Below, piece by piece: positions 15,098 through 23,035 of a stretch of 35,334 bases of DNA. Position 1 is the first letter of the stretch; each line of letters starts with the position of its first letter. The position numbers were made by a program, and so were the translations under genes. Source of the DNA: Fidelibacterota bacterium. Lineage in GTDB: Bacteria > Fidelibacterota > UBA8477 > JABMPR01. The stretch is from positions 1 through 35,334 of the forward strand of contig JABMOS010000061.1 of assembly GCA_013203185.1 (NCBI GenBank). The letters are read 5' to 3'. The notes below the pieces were generated by a model. The model was not told where the DNA came from. It worked only from the letters and a program-made list of their open reading frames with translations, and did not search any database.

Positions 15098-16723
15098 TCA
15101 AATCTCCATCGCTTTATTTGCTGCAACCCACTTGTCCAATGCTGTTGCATAGGCAATCATAAGCGATTCCACCTTAAAGGCCTTTAATAGGTCTTCGTAG
15201 GTTGTCGCAGGAGTAATAGTAATTTTTTCAGATACATATTTTGCATTCGCAGGAGGGATGCTCATTGGCATTACCACTGATCCCTGGTACGCCCTATAGC
15301 TGATTCCAATTGTCACATCGAAGACGAAGTCATCATAGGCACCATCCTCAGGTTCCTGACGAATAGCCGCAATGTTACACTCTGCCAAAACATCTGCACC
15401 TGATGATTGCATCATATCGAAATACCATGAGTCTGTTCCACCGACTCGGACCTTGATATTTTTCCAGGAGCTGAAATCTGCAAGATCCCGTGCAATTACA
15501 ACAAATGTCTTTGTATCGGATTTTGGTTTAAGGCTAGCCATTCTTTGATATGGAGCTGTATTTACAAAATCGTCTCGAGGAGTCTCCTCTGCACCAAACC
15601 CCACTGTCATCGCTGCCATAATTCCATCGGCCATGTGGTCAGCTAGTTGGGTAAGTACGGGAACCCCAAAATCCATTCCCCATCGTTTTGTAGTCGTTGT
15701 AACTGTGTTTCCACTTGTTTCTTTTTTCTCCCATGAGCCACCTGTAACGCCCTTAAAGACAAATGTGCTTAAACCCACCTGATTAATTTTATCAATATCA
15801 GCCACTGCACCAACCATGGGATTGTATTTATAAGGTGTTTCAGCAATAGTAAGAGCTACATCACCTTCTACGACTTCGATGGCAGGAATCGCTGGTCCAT
15901 CACGCTTTGTGGGCTTGCCGCTGACATTCACTTCAATGGCATCTATATCAGTATAGCTGACAATAGCGTCTCCATTAAAAACATACCGAATCTCATCTTT
16001 CTGACGCTCCAGCTGGATGATATTGGCTCCTAATTTAAATTTTGTTGCAGGTTGCAGGCTTTCAGCAAGCATCTCTGAAGTAATAGTCGCATGACCGACA
16101 TCATTGAAAAGGCCGATTGGGAGAACATTCTCCAGACCAATTTGGGTCACCATCATGGACAATTTAACAACCTTGCTGGTATCAGTTCCAGGGGTCCATT
16201 CGATTTCAAAACCTTTGCTCAAGTCGATCTCGGTATCTGGTGCCGGGGAAGTCAGGGTGATTTTATCACCCATATATGTCTCGGTAAAAGTCACTGCTTC
16301 CTCAGCAGAGCCCTTTACTGAAAAGGCAAGCTCGCTGCCATTGGTGAGATCCATAGGCAGCATATACACACCACTACCATAATAGGTTAACTCACTGCCA
16401 TTCACTTGAACACTACCCTCAACTTGCAAAAGTTTCATCCCTCTCGAGAACAGGATGGTGACATTACTTGGGTTTTCAGGGGCTGAGATACCAGCCTTAG
16501 CCATATATTCTGCTTCTAATGCTGTATATGGTCTTGCTCGGTTCACATTATTGAGTTTAATAAATGGGGTTACATCTGATACCGTGGTAGTCGAGCCCTC
16601 CATGGCCTTTGCAACCACCCCTCCAACTGCCAGTAGTGCCTTTCCGGAATATTGTTCAACTGTGGCACAACCAACAAGAAGGGTTAAAATCATCATTCCA
16701 CAAACAACCATTTTTGAGCGCAT
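15098..16723 (-). CDS. Large lipoprotein of unknown function
   Basis: The ATG at 16723 has a perfect AAGGAGG eight bases upstream and gives a 541-aa protein starting MRSKMVVCGMMILTLLVGC. This is a lipoprotein signal with Cys19. A longer open frame to 16855 lacks a signal and is rejected. The mature protein is mixed alpha/beta. A region near residues 120-190 (LTSPAPDTEIDLSKGFEIEW) resembles an Ig-like or fibronectin-like segment. I recognise no catalytic motif and no named family. Two copies of a 13-base repeat lie in its upstream region (16815-16851). It follows the LIM/DA1-like gene by 206 bases on the same strand but has its own leader. Confidence 0.8.
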   Translation of the reverse strand: MRSKMVVCGMMILTLLVGCATVEQYSGKALLAVGGVVAKAMEGSTTTVSDVTPFIKLNNVNRARPYTALEAEYMAKAGISAPENPSNVTILFSRGMKLLQVEGSVQVNGSELTYYGSGVYMLPMDLTNGSELAFSVKGSAEEAVTFTETYMGDKITLTSPAPDTEIDLSKGFEIEWTPGTDTSKVVKLSMMVTQIGLENVLPIGLFNDVGHATITSEMLAESLQPATKFKLGANIIQLERQKDEIRYVFNGDAIVSYTDIDAIEVNVSGKPTKRDGPAIPAIEVVEGDVALTIAETPYKYNPMVGAVADIDKINQVGLSTFVFKGVTGGSWEKKETSGNTVTTTTKRWGMDFGVPVLTQLADHMADGIMAAMTVGFGAEETPRDDFVNTAPYQRMASLKPKSDTKTFVVIARDLADFSSWKNIKVRVGGTDSWYFDMMQSSGADVLAECNIAAIRQEPEDGAYDDFVFDVTIGISYRAYQGSVVMPMSIPPANAKYVSEKITITPATTYEDLLKAFKVESLMIAYATALDKWVAANKAMEI

Positions 16724-16814
16724 TTCGCCTCCTTGGTAAAATTTTCGTATAGAATTGTGGTGGATCGAATACTCAAAACCACCTTCACTCCTCACATCTG
16801 TTGTGATCGAATAA

Positions 16815-16851
16815 AATATTAAACAATTTGGCGAGAGCAATATTAAACAAT
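16815..16851 (-). repeat. Two 13-base direct repeats upstream of lipoprotein gene
   Basis: AATATTAAACAAT occurs at 16815-16827 and again at 16839-16851, a 24-base period, in the non-coding region about 90-130 bases upstream of the lipoprotein ATG (minus strand). The spacing would put both copies on nearly the same face of the helix, as for tandem operators. No regulator can be named. Confidence 0.5.
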
Positions 16852-16929
16852 ACATAATCTATCATCTATTGTCTGAGCATAGCTGTGTTGTGGTTTAAGG
16901 GGAAAAGCTATCTTCAAGTTAGATGAGAA

Positions 16930-17904
16930 CTATCTAATACTACTCAGGGACTCCAGAAGATATCGCCACCCTTTACGATCAAGCTCAGCGGACATTTTAC
17001 GATACCCATAGCCATAGTCTGGATCCTGACTCTTTTGCATGTTAAGTAGGCGAAATTTGGCATATTCTGAACGAATATCTTTGTAAACAAGTTCACTCCC
17101 AAGATTGCAAAAGCCCTCGCAGATATCAGATCTCAACTCAAGATCCCTACCAAATAAATAGACGTGTAATAATTCATGTGCCAAAACAGCTCTAAACATA
17201 GTCAGGGGCAGATGAGAAAGGATATAGATGTGGCTACTTTTTGAAATAACCCTGCCATTCTGGATCTGAATATTGTGCTGCGTAAATCCGTTCATGGCAT
17301 CTGAATAAGATGAAGCAAGTTGTTCCAGTTTTTGGCGGTCCACCAGAGTAATAGGAATTTCATCAGGCAGGTTATCTATCCCGTTCGACTCCAACAACCT
17401 GCGGACATATGACACGGAAGCCCCCAAGAGAAAGTCCCCTGAAACTTCAGTTTCATTACAGATTCCGCATAGAAAACGCCCATCACCCAGCTCGAACCCA
17501 CCGCCGGTTAATGCTTCACAGATAAGTCGGCCACAGGTACTGCATTCTGGTAATTCTGATGAGTGACGCCCATGAAATGAATATTCCCAATAGTCTGTAT
17601 AGTACTTGCCTTGAAGTGGTAGATTGCAAATGGCACATTTTGGGAGGATGTGATCGGTGTAGCACACGGGATGATACATTTTATCATCTAGGATAGCATA
17701 CTTTCCATCGATGACTTTCCCGCAAAGTTCACACCTCGGTTGCACATGATCACGATAACAATTCTCATGATAGGATTTACCGTCTGTAGTGAGATAGTTT
17801 CCCTTAATGGTCTTATTGCAGTAATTGCATTTAAGATCCTGCGGCAGAATACTCCCGGTAAAGAGGAGAAGTACAATCAGGACTATGAGGGGCGTGAATC
17901 GCAT
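16930..17904 (-). CDS. Secreted LIM-type zinc-finger protein with DA1-like metallopeptidase domain
   Basis: The 324-aa product has a signal peptide (1-22). Repeated LIM-like zinc modules follow: CNYC (26-29) with HENC (46-49), CELC (58-61) with HPVC (78-81), CAIC (90-93) with H111/H114, and CSTC (121-124) with CGIC (146-149). The C-terminal half holds HELLH (243-247) and, 16 residues on, EGFCN (263-267). This HExxH...EGxC arrangement matches the plant DA1/DAR family, LIM-containing ubiquitin-activated peptidases. DA1-like annotations exist in bacteria, but a signal peptide implies extracytoplasmic action and therefore no ubiquitin link. Its substrate is unknown. The gene lies between the inositol-lipid operon and a lipoprotein gene, all on the minus strand. 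Confidence 0.78.
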   Translation of the reverse strand: MRFTPLIVLIVLLLFTGSILPQDLKCNYCNKTIKGNYLTTDGKSYHENCYRDHVQPRCELCGKVIDGKYAILDDKMYHPVCYTDHILPKCAICNLPLQGKYYTDYWEYSFHGRHSSELPECSTCGRLICEALTGGGFELGDGRFLCGICNETEVSGDFLLGASVSYVRRLLESNGIDNLPDEIPITLVDRQKLEQLASSYSDAMNGFTQHNIQIQNGRVISKSSHIYILSHLPLTMFRAVLAHELLHVYLFGRDLELRSDICEGFCNLGSELVYKDIRSEYAKFRLLNMQKSQDPDYGYGYRKMSAELDRKGWRYLLESLSSIR

Positions 17905-17965: not shown

Positions 17966-18940
17966 CTATATCTTTTCGTGCACTGCCAAAACAGGTGGTG
18001 AGTGCGTAACGATGCCTTTCTTGTCCTGATATGAACGCCACTTGCTATCTATGTAGGGTGTGATATACCAGACAACAGCGCATAGAAAGAGGCCGGCATA
18101 GATATCGACGACATAGTGGTGTCTGAGATAGACAGTAGCAATTATTAAGGACACACCGATGGGGAGGAAGATCCAGAAGAGACCCTTGTGGAAACGCCAG
18201 GCCATTCCCAGAGTAAGAAAGGTGATGGTGCAATGCAGAGAGGGGAAGGCCCCTCTGGCTGAAGCAGAACTAATATTCACCACAGCTCTGGCGCTATCTG
18301 AGATGAGTGATGTCCCCTTAAAAATATTTATGGTATACATATCTGCCAGGGCAAGTCGGGGTGGCGCAGCGGGGAATAAAATATAGAGCAGATAACCCCC
18401 ATAATAACACAGCATCATGGTGAGCATAAGGGTTCTAAATTCACGTTTCTCCCCCTTGTAATACATATAAAGCGCCAGGGTCACTGTGATCCAGAAATAA
18501 TTCATATAGGCAAATGACAGCCAGTCAGTTAGCCAGGGAGTATAAAACTTTTCAGCCCACACCGTTGGGGATACGCCAAACATCCATTCATCAATAGCAT
18601 TTAATTGGAAATGTACATCATGGGGATTTACAAAATGAATGGTATCATGGAGATTGGTATAGACAGCAATAGCAAAAATAAAGGGCGCAACTTCCCGAAT
18701 AAATTTGAAGGCTTTCTTATCTGGCCTGTACCACAGAAACCAATAGAAGATCACCATGAGAATAACCGTTACAATTATTCTGGCAATGCCACCTTCAATC
18801 TTTTTTGAATCTTCACCAACCGTTGTGTAAAAATACCAATTGGCCCTGATAGTAATCAGTGTGGACGGTATGAGAAAGATCAGGAAAATGATCTCCTCAA
18901 TTCGTAGACTCTGTATACGCCGTATCCAGGTTTTTAACAT
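17966..18940 (-). CDS. PAP2-superfamily membrane protein, AUR1/inositol phosphorylceramide synthase-like
   Basis: This 324-aa polytopic protein has about six to eight hydrophobic helices and PAP2 phosphatase/phosphotransferase motifs. They are FPAAPPR (motif 1 region), GAFPSLHCT (motif 2, with the PSxH histidine) and YLRHHYVVDIYAG (motif 3, HxxxD). The GAFPSLH...YLxHHYxVD form is the one seen in AUR1-type inositol phosphorylceramide synthases (PAP2_3) rather than in simple lipid phosphatases. It is the last gene of a run with inositol-phosphate synthase and CDP-alcohol phosphotransferase, so it may dephosphorylate phosphatidylinositol phosphate or transfer an inositol-phosphate headgroup. It has a paralogue at 21616. 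Confidence 0.8.
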   Translation of the reverse strand: MLKTWIRRIQSLRIEEIIFLIFLIPSTLITIRANWYFYTTVGEDSKKIEGGIARIIVTVILMVIFYWFLWYRPDKKAFKFIREVAPFIFAIAVYTNLHDTIHFVNPHDVHFQLNAIDEWMFGVSPTVWAEKFYTPWLTDWLSFAYMNYFWITVTLALYMYYKGEKREFRTLMLTMMLCYYGGYLLYILFPAAPPRLALADMYTINIFKGTSLISDSARAVVNISSASARGAFPSLHCTITFLTLGMAWRFHKGLFWIFLPIGVSLIIATVYLRHHYVVDIYAGLFLCAVVWYITPYIDSKWRSYQDKKGIVTHSPPVLAVHEKI

Positions 18941-18976
18941 TCTGTATCTCCCATCATCTTACACAACTACATCTAT

Positions 18977-19474
18977 CTACAACTGTACTTCTTGAAATTC
19001 TACAATACTCAGGATTCCCAGAGCTGCCAGGACAAAAATGAGACAACCCAAGATGACCCCTACCCCCACGGCCAAGCTGGTTTGTTTGCTGGAAAGATTC
19101 ATCACCCTGGCCAGGGCTAATCCAGTCCACACACCTCCGCCAAAGGGTATAGCTGTCATAGCAAGAGGACCCAGCCATCCGATTTTCATAAGCCCAGCCG
19201 TCCATTTTCTTTTGCTCAATCGTTCCTGAATTCGCTGGGAACGTTCCTGCAAATAGATGGCCCATTTAAATTTTTCAAAGGATAGATCAAACATACGGGT
19301 CAGAAATACCATCAACACAAAGTCTGAAAGGATAACGATGATTCCTACCTCCCAGGCATTGAGACCCATTAATAAACCAAGAGGGAAGGCTGCCTTCTTT
19401 CCCAACGTATACTGCGCTACAAGTAGCGGGATAATAGCCAGTATTTTAGGAGGGATCAGCTGAATCGTCCTCAA
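18977..19474 (-). CDS. Small multi-pass membrane protein, small-multidrug-export (COG2426-like) family
   Basis: The 165-aa protein has about four transmembrane segments. A central block, KIGWLGPLAMTAIPFGGGVW, followed by TGLALARVMNL and VGVGVILGCLIFVLAALG, resembles the PF06695/COG2426 'small multidrug export' family, whose function is not settled. The start overlaps the CDP-alcohol phosphotransferase gene by 29 bases, indicating tight coupling. Sitting between that enzyme and the AUR1-like PAP2 gene, it is a candidate lipid or intermediate transporter for the inositol-lipid pathway. That role is inference from context only. Confidence 0.65.
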   Translation of the reverse strand: MRTIQLIPPKILAIIPLLVAQYTLGKKAAFPLGLLMGLNAWEVGIIVILSDFVLMVFLTRMFDLSFEKFKWAIYLQERSQRIQERLSKRKWTAGLMKIGWLGPLAMTAIPFGGGVWTGLALARVMNLSSKQTSLAVGVGVILGCLIFVLAALGILSIVEFQEVQL

Positions 19475-20078
19475 CTTTTTTTACGATCATCAGGCGTTGG
19501 TAAGCTGTGTAATTGGTGCCAATAGCAAGGATGATAATAGATACTTCCAGCACAAGCTCACTACCGAAGAAACCAACACCCCAGGGATTCAAAAGAGCTC
19601 CTAGGGACAAAATAACAAAGCGTTCGAAACGCTGCATAAAGCCCACCAGTTCCTGTATGCCCAGGGATTGAGCGCGAGCGCGAATATAACTCACCATCAT
19701 GGATCCCATGACGGCCAGGAATGACCAGAAAAACATGGGGCTATCTTTAAAGTGGTAGGTGATGCCCATAAATACAAACATCTCCACATAGCGATCCAGG
19801 CTGGAGTCCAGGGTGGCACCAAATTTACTTGAGCGCTCCCCCAATCGAGCCACAGTTCCATCAAGGGTATCCAGGATGCCACTTAACAAGAGGAGCAATC
19901 CTGCCGTGGCACTGTGCCCAAACATGAAAAATCCAGCAGCAATCACACCAATAATTGAAGCCGTGAAGGAAATTGAGTTGGGATTCATCTTTGCCAGCGG
20001 CGAAGATGAGACGATGAATTTTACAACCTTATAATAGCCCTCTATAAGATGATGACGATTAAACATCCCTGTTCGCAA
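19446..20078 (-). CDS. CDP-alcohol phosphatidyltransferase, probably phosphatidylinositol (phosphate) synthase
   Basis: The 210-aa integral membrane enzyme carries the full family signature D70-x2-D73-G74-x2-A77-R78-x8-G87-x3-D91-x3-D95. Such enzymes displace CMP from CDP-diacylglycerol with an alcohol at the inner membrane. The gene starts two bases after myo-inositol-1-phosphate synthase, so inositol 1-phosphate is the likely acceptor. That would make phosphatidylinositol phosphate, as in mycobacterial PgsA1 and Bacteroides PIP synthase. Phosphatidylglycerophosphate synthase is the main alternative, but the context argues against it. Hydrophobic helices alternate through residues 35-200. 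Confidence 0.82.
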   Translation of the reverse strand: MRTGMFNRHHLIEGYYKVVKFIVSSSPLAKMNPNSISFTASIIGVIAAGFFMFGHSATAGLLLLLSGILDTLDGTVARLGERSSKFGATLDSSLDRYVEMFVFMGITYHFKDSPMFFWSFLAVMGSMMVSYIRARAQSLGIQELVGFMQRFERFVILSLGALLNPWGVGFFGSELVLEVSIIILAIGTNYTAYQRLMIVKKVEDDSADPS

Positions 20079-20080
20079 TT

Positions 20081-21391
20081 CTATTCGTAGGAATCATAAT
20101 ATTCGTGTCCAATATGAGTAATAAGTTCCTCGCCCATCATCCAGCGAAGTGTATTCTTCAATTTGGTGAGTTGAATGAAGATATCATGCTCTGGATAAAG
20201 ACCAGGTGCTACCATGGGTGCCTTAAAGTAGAATGAAAGCCATTCCTGGATGCCTCGCATGTTATGGCGATGTGCCAGATCTGCGAATAACACCAAATCC
20301 AACACAATGGGTGCAGCAAGAATGGAGTCGCGACATAAAAAGTCAACTTTTATCTGCATTTTGTAGCCCATCCATCCAAAGATGTCAATATTATCCCAAC
20401 CTTCCTTGGCATCACCACGGGGTGGGTAATAATTGATCCGAACCTTGTGGTAGAGATCTTTGTAAAGATCTGGATAAACGTCAGGTTGCAGGATGTAGTC
20501 CAAGGCGCCCTTTTTTGAAACTTCCTTAGATTTAAATGACATGGGATCGTCCAATACTTCACCATCACGGTTGCCCAGAATATTGGTAGAGAACCAGCCC
20601 TCAACCCCAAGCATTCTGGATTTGAGTCCAGGAGCAAGAATGGTCTTCATTAGTGTTTGACCTGTCTTGAAATCTTTGCCGCCAATAGGCAGTCCTTCTG
20701 CCATGGCCAATTCCTGTATTGCTGGAATATCTACTGTGAGGTTTGGTGCGCCCATGAGAAAGGGAAGACCAGATTTCAGAGCCGCATAAGCATAGATCAT
20801 ACTTGGGGCTATGAGAGGATCATTATCTCGTAATGCTGCTTCAAACTTTTCCAGAGTACTATGGATGTCTGAAGGCTCAAGGTAGGCTTCCGTGCTGGCA
20901 CACCAGATCATGACTTCTCGAGTCGTCTTGTTGGTTTTTCTGAAAGCCTTGATATCGTCCATGAGCATTTCAGCCAACATCATTTTGTTGGGAGCCGATT
21001 TCTTATGTACACCATCTATGTTTTTGATATAGGCTGGATCGAAAACCGCTTTCATTGGTTTGACAGCTTCCAGTGCTGGACGTGCTCTTTCGAGATCTTG
21101 AGGTGTTAAAACGTTTGCCCGTGTTGCAGCCTGGTATCCATCATCTTCAAAAATATCCCAGGCGCCAAAGACCAAATCCTTAAGTTCCGCAAGTGGTACA
21201 AAATCTTTTATTTTAGGACTGCGGTTCTCAGTTCTTTTCCCCAGGCGAATGGTTCCCATCTGGGTGACACTGCCAATAGGCGCAGAATGCCCATTAATGA
21301 TGGCATCTACACCAGCGATAAATGTGGTTGATACTGCTCCTAATCCAGGAATTAAGACTCCCAGTTTCCCCTGTGGTGCTTTTGTATCCAA
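20081..21391 (-). CDS. ino1: myo-Inositol-1-phosphate synthase
   Basis: This NAD-dependent lyase turns glucose 6-phosphate into inositol 1-phosphate, the first step to inositol lipids. The 436-aa protein has an N-terminal dinucleotide loop (GVLIPGLGAVSTTFIAGV, about 11-28) and the conserved catalytic-domain segments FKTGQTLMKTILAP, DDPMSFKSKEVSK and QIKVDFLCRDSILAAPIVLD. The length fits bacterial and archaeal MIPS. The start codon is TTG at 21391 (TTGGATACA), supported by GAGAGGAG eight bases upstream; no ATG is suitably placed. It heads the minus-strand inositol-lipid operon, and a paralogous PAP2 gene is divergent from it. Confidence 0.92.
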   Translation of the reverse strand: MDTKAPQGKLGVLIPGLGAVSTTFIAGVDAIINGHSAPIGSVTQMGTIRLGKRTENRSPKIKDFVPLAELKDLVFGAWDIFEDDGYQAATRANVLTPQDLERARPALEAVKPMKAVFDPAYIKNIDGVHKKSAPNKMMLAEMLMDDIKAFRKTNKTTREVMIWCASTEAYLEPSDIHSTLEKFEAALRDNDPLIAPSMIYAYAALKSGLPFLMGAPNLTVDIPAIQELAMAEGLPIGGKDFKTGQTLMKTILAPGLKSRMLGVEGWFSTNILGNRDGEVLDDPMSFKSKEVSKKGALDYILQPDVYPDLYKDLYHKVRINYYPPRGDAKEGWDNIDIFGWMGYKMQIKVDFLCRDSILAAPIVLDLVLFADLAHRHNMRGIQEWLSFYFKAPMVAPGLYPEHDIFIQLTKLKNTLRWMMGEELITHIGHEYYDSYE

Positions 21392-21615
21392 AAAAATACT
21401 CCTCTCACGCTATCAACAGATATCAGCGAATAATTAAAGGCAAAATTTAATCTCGCCACCAGGCAATTCAAGGCATGGATTGGTGCATCTGGCCAGGCTC
21501 TGGTGGGGCTCAACAACTTATGAAAAAACCCGGTTTCCCTATGGACTTTATAATAACTGGGTGGAACTCATATTTTGGTCTATAATTCAGTGATCCACAC
21601 CTTATTTTGCCAGCA

Positions 21616-22584
21616 ATGAAGCGGGATGCCATATTTAATAATACTCTCCTCCAGGCGCTACGCATTGAGGAAGTCATCGGTTTACTACTCATAACATTCG
21701 CCATTTTATTCGCCAGTATTTCAAACCTATATATGTTCATGAGCAACCTGCCAGAAGCGCAAAACGCTGTCGCCAATATTTCTCGCATCCTGGCCTCCAC
21801 TTTTTTTACCTTTATATTTTATCGATCCATCCTCTTGCATGCAGAAAACAGACAGTTTCAAATCTTTCGTGATTTTGCACCCTTTTTATCTATCCTGATT
21901 ATTTATTTCAATCTTCAGGATGCCATATTTCTCATTAATCCAAAGGACATTCACCACACACTCATTCAACTGGATGAGAAACTATTGGGGTTTCAGCCTA
22001 CTGTCTGGGCCGAAAAATTTTACCATCCCAGACTCACAGATTGGTTCTCATTTTCCTATTTGAACTACTATTTCATGACTCCAATCTTGTTGGCTCTTCT
22101 CTATCTGAACAAGAGCTATGAGAGCTTTAGAAGGGTAATCGTGACCATAATGATTAGTTATTTCATGGGCTTTATCAGCTATATCATATTCCCTGCATCC
22201 TCACCCTATCTGGTCATTCCAGAGATGTATGACGTAGATATCTGGCAGGACACATCCTTTATCTCCTGGCTCACCTACAGCATTGTTGATTTATCACCCC
22301 ATCGGGTCCGTGATGCCTTCCCATCCATGCACAATGCAATCGTACTATTGACGATGATTATGGCCTGGCGCTATCATCGAACTTTTTTTTGGGTGCAGTT
22401 TCCAGTGGCCATCTCCTTGCCCTTTGCTACGATATATTTAAGATATCACTATGCCGTTGATATCATTGGCGCACTTCCAATTGTAGCTGCAGGGCTGTAC
22501 ATCAGTCCGCGCCTTGAACAAAAATGGAGACAGGTCCAAACAAGAGATACCTCTTTTGAGGACCCCTCAGCGAAAGTAGTGTGA
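21616..22584 (+). CDS. Second PAP2/AUR1-like membrane protein
   Basis: This 322-aa polytopic paralogue of the protein at 17966 shares PTVWAEKFY, LTDWFSFSYLNYYF, FPASSPYL, DAFPSMHNA (PSxH type) and YLRYHYAVDIIGA (HxxxD). I use the ATG at 21616; a TTG nine bases upstream is also possible. A TATAAT at 21581-21586 precedes it without a convincing -35. It is divergent from the inositol-phosphate synthase gene, so the two PAP2 genes flank the cluster. One may be a headgroup transferase and the other a phosphatase, but sequence alone does not say which. The GNAT gene follows after four bases. Confidence 0.8.
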   Translation: MKRDAIFNNTLLQALRIEEVIGLLLITFAILFASISNLYMFMSNLPEAQNAVANISRILASTFFTFIFYRSILLHAENRQFQIFRDFAPFLSILIIYFNLQDAIFLINPKDIHHTLIQLDEKLLGFQPTVWAEKFYHPRLTDWFSFSYLNYYFMTPILLALLYLNKSYESFRRVIVTIMISYFMGFISYIIFPASSPYLVIPEMYDVDIWQDTSFISWLTYSIVDLSPHRVRDAFPSMHNAIVLLTMIMAWRYHRTFFWVQFPVAISLPFATIYLRYHYAVDIIGALPIVAAGLYISPRLEQKWRQVQTRDTSFEDPSAKVV

Positions 22585-22588
22585 ATTT

Positions 22589-23035
22589 TTGAGCGCTGAA
22601 AAACGGATCAAAGTCTCTCTCATCCAATCAGGCGAGGATACATTGGCATCCAGACAAATACGTGAAGAAGTATTTGTAGTAGAACAACAGGTTCCTGTGG
22701 AAATTGAATATGATGATTACGAACAGATTTCTACACACATACTTGCAAAACTCAATGGCGTTCCAGTTGGCACCGCCCGTTGGCGAAAGACTGAGCATGG
22801 TCAAAAACTTGAGCGGTTTGCAGTGCTGAAATCAGCGAGAGGCAAGGGAGTCGGAGAAGCTCTTGTGAATTACATTCTCCATGAAATTGAAGATTCCGAA
22901 CCTGCCTATTTAAATTCACAAGTATCAGCCATACCCTTTTATGCTCGACTAGGGTTTGAAGAAACTGGTGGAATCTTTTACGAGGCCGGAATTCCCCATA
23001 AAAAAATGGTTCGAAAGTCCTGCCAAAAAAAATGA
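22589..23035 (+). CDS. GNAT-family N-acetyltransferase
   Basis: The 148-aa product has the GNAT acetyl-CoA fold. Motif A is FAVLKSARGKGVGEALV, with the RGKGVG pyrophosphate loop, and the C-terminal strand PFYARLGFEETGGIFYEAGI with HKKM resembles ElaA/YjcF-type acetyltransferases. The start is TTG at 22589, four bases past the PAP2 stop, and no ATG is available. The stop lies inside the terminator at 23027. The acceptor substrate cannot be predicted. It is co-transcribed with the PAP2 paralogue but need not share its pathway. Confidence 0.82.
   Translation: MSAEKRIKVSLIQSGEDTLASRQIREEVFVVEQQVPVEIEYDDYEQISTHILAKLNGVPVGTARWRKTEHGQKLERFAVLKSARGKGVGEALVNYILHEIEDSEPAYLNSQVSAIPFYARLGFEETGGIFYEAGIPHKKMVRKSCQKK

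Follow-up and report, generated by a model that had tools for sequence, protein, structure and literature searches.

An uncultured marine bacterium of the phylum Candidatus Neomarinimicrobiota carries a four-gene operon that, judged from its sequence, very probably makes phosphatidylinositol (PI). The operon lies in a 35,334-nucleotide stretch of DNA (hereafter the window) from a genome of 82% completeness. Its genes and their two divergent neighbors are as follows.

20081..21391, minus strand: MIPS, myo-inositol-1-phosphate synthase, which makes inositol phosphate (PF07994 322 bits, PF01658 112 bits)
19446..20066 (listed ORF from 20078), minus strand: PIPS, phosphatidylinositol-phosphate synthase, 206 aa (PF01066 55 bits)
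18977..19474, minus strand: membrane protein of family PF06695 ('Sm_multidrug_ex'), PIPS-linked paralogue and candidate phosphatidylinositol-phosphate (PIP) flippase (52.7 bits)
17966..18940, minus strand: PAP2A, membrane enzyme of the PAP2_3 family, candidate PIP phosphatase or phosphoinositol transferase (PF14378 88 bits)
21616..22584 (listed ORF from 21607), plus strand: PAP2B, divergent PAP2_3 paralogue (PF14378 76 bits)
22589..23035, plus strand: GNAT acetyltransferase adjoining PAP2B (PF13673 62 bits)

The inositol-lipid operon proposed in an earlier sequence-only reading is supported. Pfam matches place all five of its genes, MIPS to PAP2B, where it had put them, the PAP2 motifs it quoted are present, and the spacings it gave (2, -29 and 36 bases) agree with the listed ORF starts. 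A stop codon separates the upstream start of PIPS from the ATG at 20066 in 4 of 20 related loci, which suggests this ATG as the true start and widens the MIPS-PIPS gap to 14 bases. For PAP2B the ATG at 21616 is the probable start, as M4 is invariant in 11/11 rows. PIPS matches were obtained in 25 other genomes, and we mapped gene order in 20 of these. Fifteen have MIPS-PIPS-PF06695-PAP2A in that order on one strand (MIPS is cut by a contig end in one), in two the contig ends after MIPS, PIPS and PF06695, in one an additional ORF precedes PAP2A, and in two, from a more distant family, MIPS and PIPS are the sole members of the quartet. Among related loci with a full match MIPS is 66–94% identical. 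The four genes are an operon retained across genus and order, and their arrangement is no accident. Promoter-like sites at the locus are not above chance (9 versus 10.5 expected), so the transcription unit is read from gene spacing; terminator-like sites number 6 versus 3.7 expected. Within open-licence PMC papers, including those on inositol in Marinimicrobia and recent inositol-lipid work, we found no published description of this cluster.

The gene described earlier as a CDP-alcohol phosphatidyltransferase is, by its residues and profile scores, a phosphatidylinositol-phosphate synthase and not PgsA. Its matches among solved structures include PIP synthase chains, the strongest at E 1.8e-27, and it has in common with the actinobacterial enzymes (PDB 5d91, 6wm5 and 6h53, the last of which we take to be M. 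tuberculosis PgsA1) the CDP-AP motif, the inositol-phosphate-binding residues and MIPS as substrate supplier. In an alignment of 17 rows, which excludes the four loci with a stop after the upstream start, D70, D73, G74, A77, G87, D91 and D95 of the motif DxxDGxxAR...GxxxDxxxD are invariant and R78 is nearly so. R96, S130, R135, R150, R153 and R195 are invariant in 17/17 rows and align with R94, S132, R137, R152, R155 and R195 of M. tuberculosis PgsA1, while the counterpart of PgsA1 K135 is an arginine (R133); inositol-phosphate-binding roles have been described for all seven PgsA1 residues (PMC6506517). NCBIfam models of AIP and PIP synthases score 112–139 bits, compared with 25 bits for pgsA. 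These scores lie below the cut-offs (139 of 180 bits for AIP synthase, 138 of 350 for the BT1523 type and, unlike the actinobacterial enzymes, 112 of 170 for PIPS), so that the protein is related to, yet outside, each curated family and is best described as working like a PIPS. PgsA lies elsewhere in the genome, and separate genes also encode a PssA-like protein and a second protein resembling PgsA.

In the pathway that we propose, MIPS would provide inositol phosphate, which PIPS would combine with CDP-diacylglycerol on the cytoplasmic face to give PIP. The PF06695 protein, whose family is related to DedA flippases, would carry PIP (or else PI) through the inner membrane, and PAP2A, by the histidine-based catalysis typical of PAP2 proteins, would take the phosphate off the inositol of PIP to leave phosphatidylinositol. 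The MIPS and PIPS steps have strong sequence evidence, while transport and dephosphorylation are suggested by gene linkage, co-occurrence and family membership; taken whole, the scheme is an even call. Among bacteria, inositol lipids have been described as relatively rare (PMC9246714). We surveyed 245 genomes of the phylum for PAP2A, PIPS, SPT and the cluster form of PF06695. PAP2A was found in 22 genomes, 20 of them with PIPS, and the cluster form of PF06695 in 19, each with both PIPS and PAP2A; these co-occurrences speak for the scheme. In one genome (G060) PAP2A and PIPS are on different contigs.

PIPS enzymes yield PIP (PMC6506517, PMC9246714), hence a phosphatase is required to reach phosphatidylinositol. 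That of mycobacteria was called yet-unidentified in 2019 (PMC6506517), a 2022 review called the PIP-to-PI enzyme unidentified in bacteria (PMC9385802), and among the papers covered the step has been assigned for Bacteroides only, to a PgpA-like protein (BT_1525; PMC9246714). A Pfam scan of the inositol cluster detected no PgpA-family gene. The genome's single PgpA match shares 4 bases with PgsA in an overlap and, as it is paired with that gene, no dedicated PIP phosphatase of the BT_1525 type was found. Still, this PgpA, or one of two further PAP2_3-matching genes that resemble undecaprenyl-diphosphatases, could act on PIP instead of PAP2A. Five genomes (group f3) have PIPS without PAP2A and must use another phosphatase. 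Open-licence PMC papers returned nothing on PF14378 or on PIP phosphatase in combination with PAP2.

The small membrane protein, present but left without identity in the sequence-only reading, belongs to PF06695 (52.7 bits against a Pfam gathering score of 30.7). This family has been reported to be homologous to DedA (PF09335; PMC7818093), and DedA proteins flip undecaprenyl phosphate (PMC12893004). The cluster protein resembles the DedA superfamily (PF09335 and PF06695), with C55-P flippases such as UptA and PA4029, in its PF06695 membership and in two conserved loop motifs, taken as the family's re-entrant loops, and differs in carrying GKK for ELR, in a second loop one residue shorter and in its linkage to PIPS. 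GKK occupies the first loop of 19/19 cluster copies versus ELR in 33/33 other PF06695 proteins, a set that leans towards ELR as its profile came from 9 ORFs hand-picked by ELR or the loop-2 pattern; all 33 loci tried (30 of 56 matches plus 3 f14 loci) gave a member. Profile comparison with the genome's other PF06695 copy aligned 48 columns at 73% probability (E 3e-5). The AlphaFold model, built from 19 rows, has a mean pLDDT of 60, and its 31 fold matches are all at E 2.4 or worse. By gene linkage, co-occurrence and family membership, the cluster protein is a candidate PIP flippase.

For PAP2A, the AUR1-like motif seen in the sequence-only reading is borne out. PAP2A shares GAFPSLH and T-x-YLxHHYxxD with AUR1 of yeast, an inositol phosphorylceramide synthase (PDB 9ivc, 9vj3) that is also the best match of PAP2A among solved structures, both by sequence and by fold. 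The PAP2A profile scores 24.7 bits against AUR1, although over 74 profile positions only. A fold search with a PAP2A model gave AUR1 as the top match and sole standout among 45 fold matches (probability 1.00, TM 0.49), weakly so at E 0.072 and with a low-confidence model (mean pLDDT 64). In a joint alignment of 10 of the 17 PAP2A rows and 6 of the 11 PAP2B rows, the C2 histidine, C3 histidine and aspartate (H236, H275 and D279 of PAP2A) are invariant in 16/16 rows; the PAP2A rows carry G ahead of AFPS where those of PAP2B carry D, and APPR where those of PAP2B have SPY. The third-motif arginine of PgpB-type phosphatases is a threonine in PAP2A, as it is in AUR1. Both the motif and the closest solved structure belong to a transferase and not to a phosphatase, which speaks against the pathway scheme. 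The same features, including the residues that set PAP2A apart from PAP2B, would fit a phosphoinositol transferase with a non-ceramide acceptor, for example diacylglycerol, a glycolipid or a polyprenol lipid, PIP first being dephosphorylated by PgpA or another enzyme. We consider this rather unlikely, as the operon contains no recognised acceptor or accessory gene and the phosphatase step would fall to an unlinked gene.

The inositol phosphorylceramide synthase function that the sequence-only reading drew from Bacteroides is not supported. The B. thetaiotaomicron cluster BT_1522-BT_1526 (PMC9246714) is a precedent in that it likewise groups MIPS and PIPS with an AUR1-like PAP2 protein and one more small membrane protein. 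The window cluster differs in having the PF06695 protein and no recognised PgpA-like BT_1525 or GtrA-type BT_1524, and PAP2A scores 27.3 bits (PAP2B 19.7) against a cut-off of 480 bits for the PI-dihydroceramide synthase family of BT_1522 (NF052609). None of the 19 genomes of our genus sample, 18 of which have PAP2A, contains an SPT-like match. Among 18 genus genomes, 17 have one alpha-oxoamine synthase match each, 86–100% identical to the glycine C-acetyltransferase of the window genome, and the eighteenth (63% complete) has no such match; NCBIfam typing of these synthases covers 11 proteins rather than all 46 genomes with an SPT-like gene. Across the phylum an SPT-like gene accompanies PAP2A in 3 of 22 genomes (group f2), compared with SPT in 43 of 223 without PAP2A. 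The three f2 genomes and the AUR1-like motif and fold are in keeping with a ceramide enzyme, and ceramide may be obtained by uptake. However, with the genus synthases resembling glycine C-acetyltransferase and the scores and co-occurrence given above, such a role for PAP2A, argued by analogy, is highly improbable; as no gene for the first step of ceramide synthesis turned up in the genus, the function of PAP2A is probably not that of AUR1 in yeast. On SPT in Marinimicrobia, the portions of the open-licence PMC literature that we covered name the phylum only within a reference list.

PAP2A is strongly constrained in this genus without found SPT, with a dN/dS of 0.043 that is close to those of MIPS (0.028) and PIPS (0.051), calculated from 7 of the 19 genus genomes. 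This cautions against naming AUR1-like PAP2 proteins ceramide enzymes. The operon offers compact candidates for the PIP-to-PI step and for transmembrane lipid movement in an uncultured marine phylum. Tentatively, we suggest that PF06695 and PAP2A form a dedicated pair, in which a DedA-related paralogue specialised for PIP flipping works with an AUR1-like PAP2 protein that finishes phosphatidylinositol on the outer face. If true, the pair would solve the phosphatase step, left unassigned for mycobacteria in 2019 (PMC6506517) and for bacteria in 2022 (PMC9385802), in a second way that does not involve PgpA, and would include an inositol-lipid flippase of a kind for which we met no description in the literature covered.

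The sequence-only reading suggested that the two PAP2 copies are one transferase and one phosphatase, or serve two lipid acceptors, which would make PAP2B a second enzyme of the pathway. The two proteins share 38% identity over 310 columns and form sister clades; the PAP2B alignment excludes 6 loci whose best match is PAP2A. The retained catalytic residues of PAP2B and its position as divergent neighbor of MIPS in 9 of the 14 loci that have it are compatible with a pathway role. In the other five it lies away from MIPS, whereas GNAT adjoins it in 14/14; GNAT also occurs without PAP2B in five loci (L034–L038). Searches of four of the 18 genus genomes with PAP2A (G002, G004, G010 and G016) and of all three f2 genomes detected no PAP2B, while one genome (G001, 95% complete) has a B-clade gene and no detected PIPS, PAP2A or cluster PF06695. 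Its dN/dS of 0.168 is about four times that of PAP2A in the same seven genomes. A role as second pathway enzyme therefore seems quite improbable; being GNAT-linked, faster-evolving and missing from four of 18 genomes, PAP2B is probably a paralogue outside the pathway.

A search of genome contigs with PAP2A and PAP2B returned 26 loci. At the four outside the phylum, in Zixiibacterium, Calditrichota, Longispora and Planctomycetota genomes, PAP2 was the only one of 16 window proteins tried that matched by tblastn. Twenty-one of the loci are labelled Neomarinimicrobiota or Marinimicrobia and one 'bacterium'.

All four genes of the inositol-lipid operon lie on the reverse strand. Their positions in the sequence-only reading hold with the listed open reading frame starts, and the true starts of PIPS (20066) and PAP2B (21616) probably lie further in.

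20081-21391, (-), myo-inositol-1-phosphate synthase (MIPS)
19446-20066, (-), CDP-alcohol enzyme, phosphatidylinositol-phosphate synthase (PIPS)
18977-19474, (-), PF06695 membrane protein
17966-18940, (-), PAP2_3 protein PAP2A
21616-22584, (+), PAP2_3 protein PAP2B
22589-23035, (+), GNAT acetyltransferase
16930-17904, (-), LIM-domain and DA1-like-domain protein with a HELLH motif and an N-terminal hydrophobic stretch
15098-16855, (-), 585-aa protein

The order MIPS-PIPS-PF06695-PAP2A recurs on one strand in 15 of 20 mapped related loci, in one of which a contig end truncates MIPS. Two further loci (L034, L041) retain the first three genes as far as the contig end, and in L042 a single additional ORF precedes PAP2A. 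Identity to the window is 66-97% for MIPS (the 97% value being a fragment) and 38-92% for PIPS across all 20 loci, 47-88% for the PF06695 protein, 75-93% for PAP2A and 48-82% for PAP2B where present. Median Nei-Gojobori dN/dS was 0.028 for MIPS, 0.043 for PAP2A, 0.051 for PIPS, 0.075 for PF06695 and 0.168 for PAP2B (21 pairs, seven genus genomes), values that are rough because dS is near 1 (0.57 for PF06695). In a scan for PAP2A and PAP2B, 21 of 26 loci in named records carried a Candidatus Neomarinimicrobiota/Marinimicrobia label. The operon very probably makes phosphatidylinositol.

A firm placement of the CDP-alcohol enzyme with PgsA was to count against the sequence-only reading. The enzyme does not fall there, as pgsA scored just 25 bits, next to 139 for archaetidylinositol-phosphate synthase, 138 for the BT_1523 type and 112 for phosphatidylinositol-phosphate (PIP) synthase, all four under their curated cut-offs. 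Among solved structures the PIPS profile matched seven distinct chains (E 1.8e-27 to 4.5e-17). Each is a CDP-alcohol phosphotransferase acting on an inositol substrate, the AF2299 enzyme or one of its fusions; the best is presumably M. tuberculosis PgsA1. Residue numbers of this top chain agree with those in PMC6506517, and the inositol-phosphate residues named there are conserved in 17/17 PIPS rows, with Arg replacing Lys135. Three other CDP-alcohol enzymes occur in the window genome (82% complete): a PgsA adjoining PgpA, another PgsA-like protein scoring 101 bits against a cut-off of 109, and a PssA-like protein scoring 106 against 107. Judged by sequence, the PIPS product should be PIP, and a phosphatase is therefore required.

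The best single reading of PAP2A, at even odds, is that it is this phosphatase. In Bacteroides the role belongs to the PgpA-like BT_1525, according to PMC9246714. The single PgpA found in the window genome shares a 4-base overlap with PgsA; across 23 genomes, a PgpA search gave one match in 20, two partial matches in one and no match in two. Two more PAP2_3-matching genes on other contigs, closest to undecaprenyl-diphosphatase NCBIfam families though below cut-off, could be alternative PIP-acting enzymes. PAP2A was not found in any of five genomes of family f3 that carry PIPS, so another gene must supply their PIP phosphatase. At two f3 loci the pair is reversed, PIPS then MIPS (L043 7747-9837, L044 8020-10060), with PAP2A and PF06695 absent nearby.

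PAP2A belongs to PAP2_3 (88 bits), with His236, His275 and Asp279 invariant. The sequence-only reading had called both PAP2 proteins AUR1-like, which stands for PAP2A. Against solved structures its 17-row profile matched yeast AUR1 best (24.7 bits, E 1.1e-4), followed by a PgpB-type phosphatase (17.7 bits, E 0.015), and AUR1 was the sole clear fold match of a low-confidence model (pLDDT 64). The PAP2B profile matched the PgpB-type phosphatase alone (16 bits). Arg in the third motif is a feature of classical PAP2 phosphatases; at the aligned position the PgpB-type chain has Arg, and AUR1 and PAP2A both have Thr. A phosphoinositol transferase acting on a non-ceramide acceptor ranks second and is rather doubtful. 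A split match to a Calditrichota PAP2_3 relative (L117 7001-7908) falls in two different frames, so that gene is broken or mis-sequenced.

The proposed inositol phosphorylceramide synthase, as in Bacteroides, is the least likely of the three readings and decidedly improbable: PAP2A scores 27 bits to the PI-ceramide synthase family of Bacteroides, far under its 480 cut-off, and none of the 19 genus genomes has a match like serine palmitoyltransferase (SPT). For this search of 245 phylum genomes we used an SPT-like protein of family f2, and E <= 1e-90 gave 47 genomes. G029 (307 bits) was dropped, its relative in G023 being typed as glycine C-acetyltransferase, leaving 46 with best matches of at least 344 bits. 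Seven SPT-like proteins from six genomes were typed, SerpalmtaseCFB being best for all (518-569 bits, under the 640 cut-off). Single alpha-oxoamine synthases in 17 of 18 genus genomes are 86-100% identical to that of the window genome; the two that were typed scored 675 and 665 bits as glycine C-acetyltransferase, above its cut-off of 493. SPT-like genes are dispersed across Neomarinimicrobiota (including G020, G021 and G022), which suggests that parts of the phylum may make sphingolipids.

PAP2A proper (67-100% identity) occurs in 22 of the 245 genomes (18 genus, three f2, G060); a 23rd match in G001 (55%) was excluded as it groups in the PAP2B clade. PIPS (at least 234 bits) occurs in 25 (17 genus, two f2, G060, five f3), leaving out weak matches (42-110 bits) in 31 further genomes. 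PIPS accompanies PAP2A in 20/22 genomes, the remaining two being 63% and 82% complete, and SPT does so in 3/22 versus 43/223 genomes without PAP2A; as the genomes are related, these counts are non-independent events. G060, the most separate case, has PIPS on one contig and PAP2A on another. Some weak PIPS matches fall in 438-467 aa open frames (G065, G080, G228-G231, G055, G025), a length close to that of the bifunctional inositol-phosphate cytidylyltransferase/phosphotransferases, whose family NF041135 spans 419 positions.

The second PAP2 had been proposed as a pathway member, and we do not count it among the pathway genes. PAP2B is 38% identical to PAP2A over 310 aligned columns and forms a long-branched clade (support 96/98; A clade 92/85) with the G001 gene basal. 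PAP2B adjoins GNAT in 14/14 loci and MIPS in nine of them; five mapped loci have GNAT and no PAP2B. The genome search gave no PAP2B match in 4 of 18 genus genomes having PAP2A, and G001 (95% complete) keeps its B-clade gene with PIPS, PAP2A and the cluster PF06695 protein not found.

The cluster form of PF06695 (at least 230 bits) occurs in 19/245 genomes, all with both PIPS and PAP2A; three more score 26-27 bits. A second, standard copy (114-121 bits) was detected in 18 of 19 genus genomes and not found in G015. The first loop reads GKK in 19/19 cluster proteins versus ELR in 33/33 others, a comparison set biased to ELR by recruitment with a profile from nine ORFs chosen on ELR or the loop-2 pattern. 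The cluster proteins also have a second loop shorter by one residue. PF06695 is reported to be homologous to DedA/PF09335, with two re-entrant loops, and acidic and basic residues to be essential in YqjA (PMC7818093); an undecaprenyl phosphate flippase role is described for DedA proteins (PMC12893004). The positively charged loop, the lipid-flippase-related family and the tie to the PIP-making enzyme suggest a candidate PIP carrier, which would take PIP across the membrane; a flipping role is plausible.

Beside the operon, the 585-aa protein recurs in 4/20 mapped loci and, at the thresholds applied, matched neither a Pfam nor an NCBIfam family. LIM domains are uncommon in bacteria; the LIM/DA1-like protein adjoins PAP2A, and a relative is present in 12/20 mapped loci.
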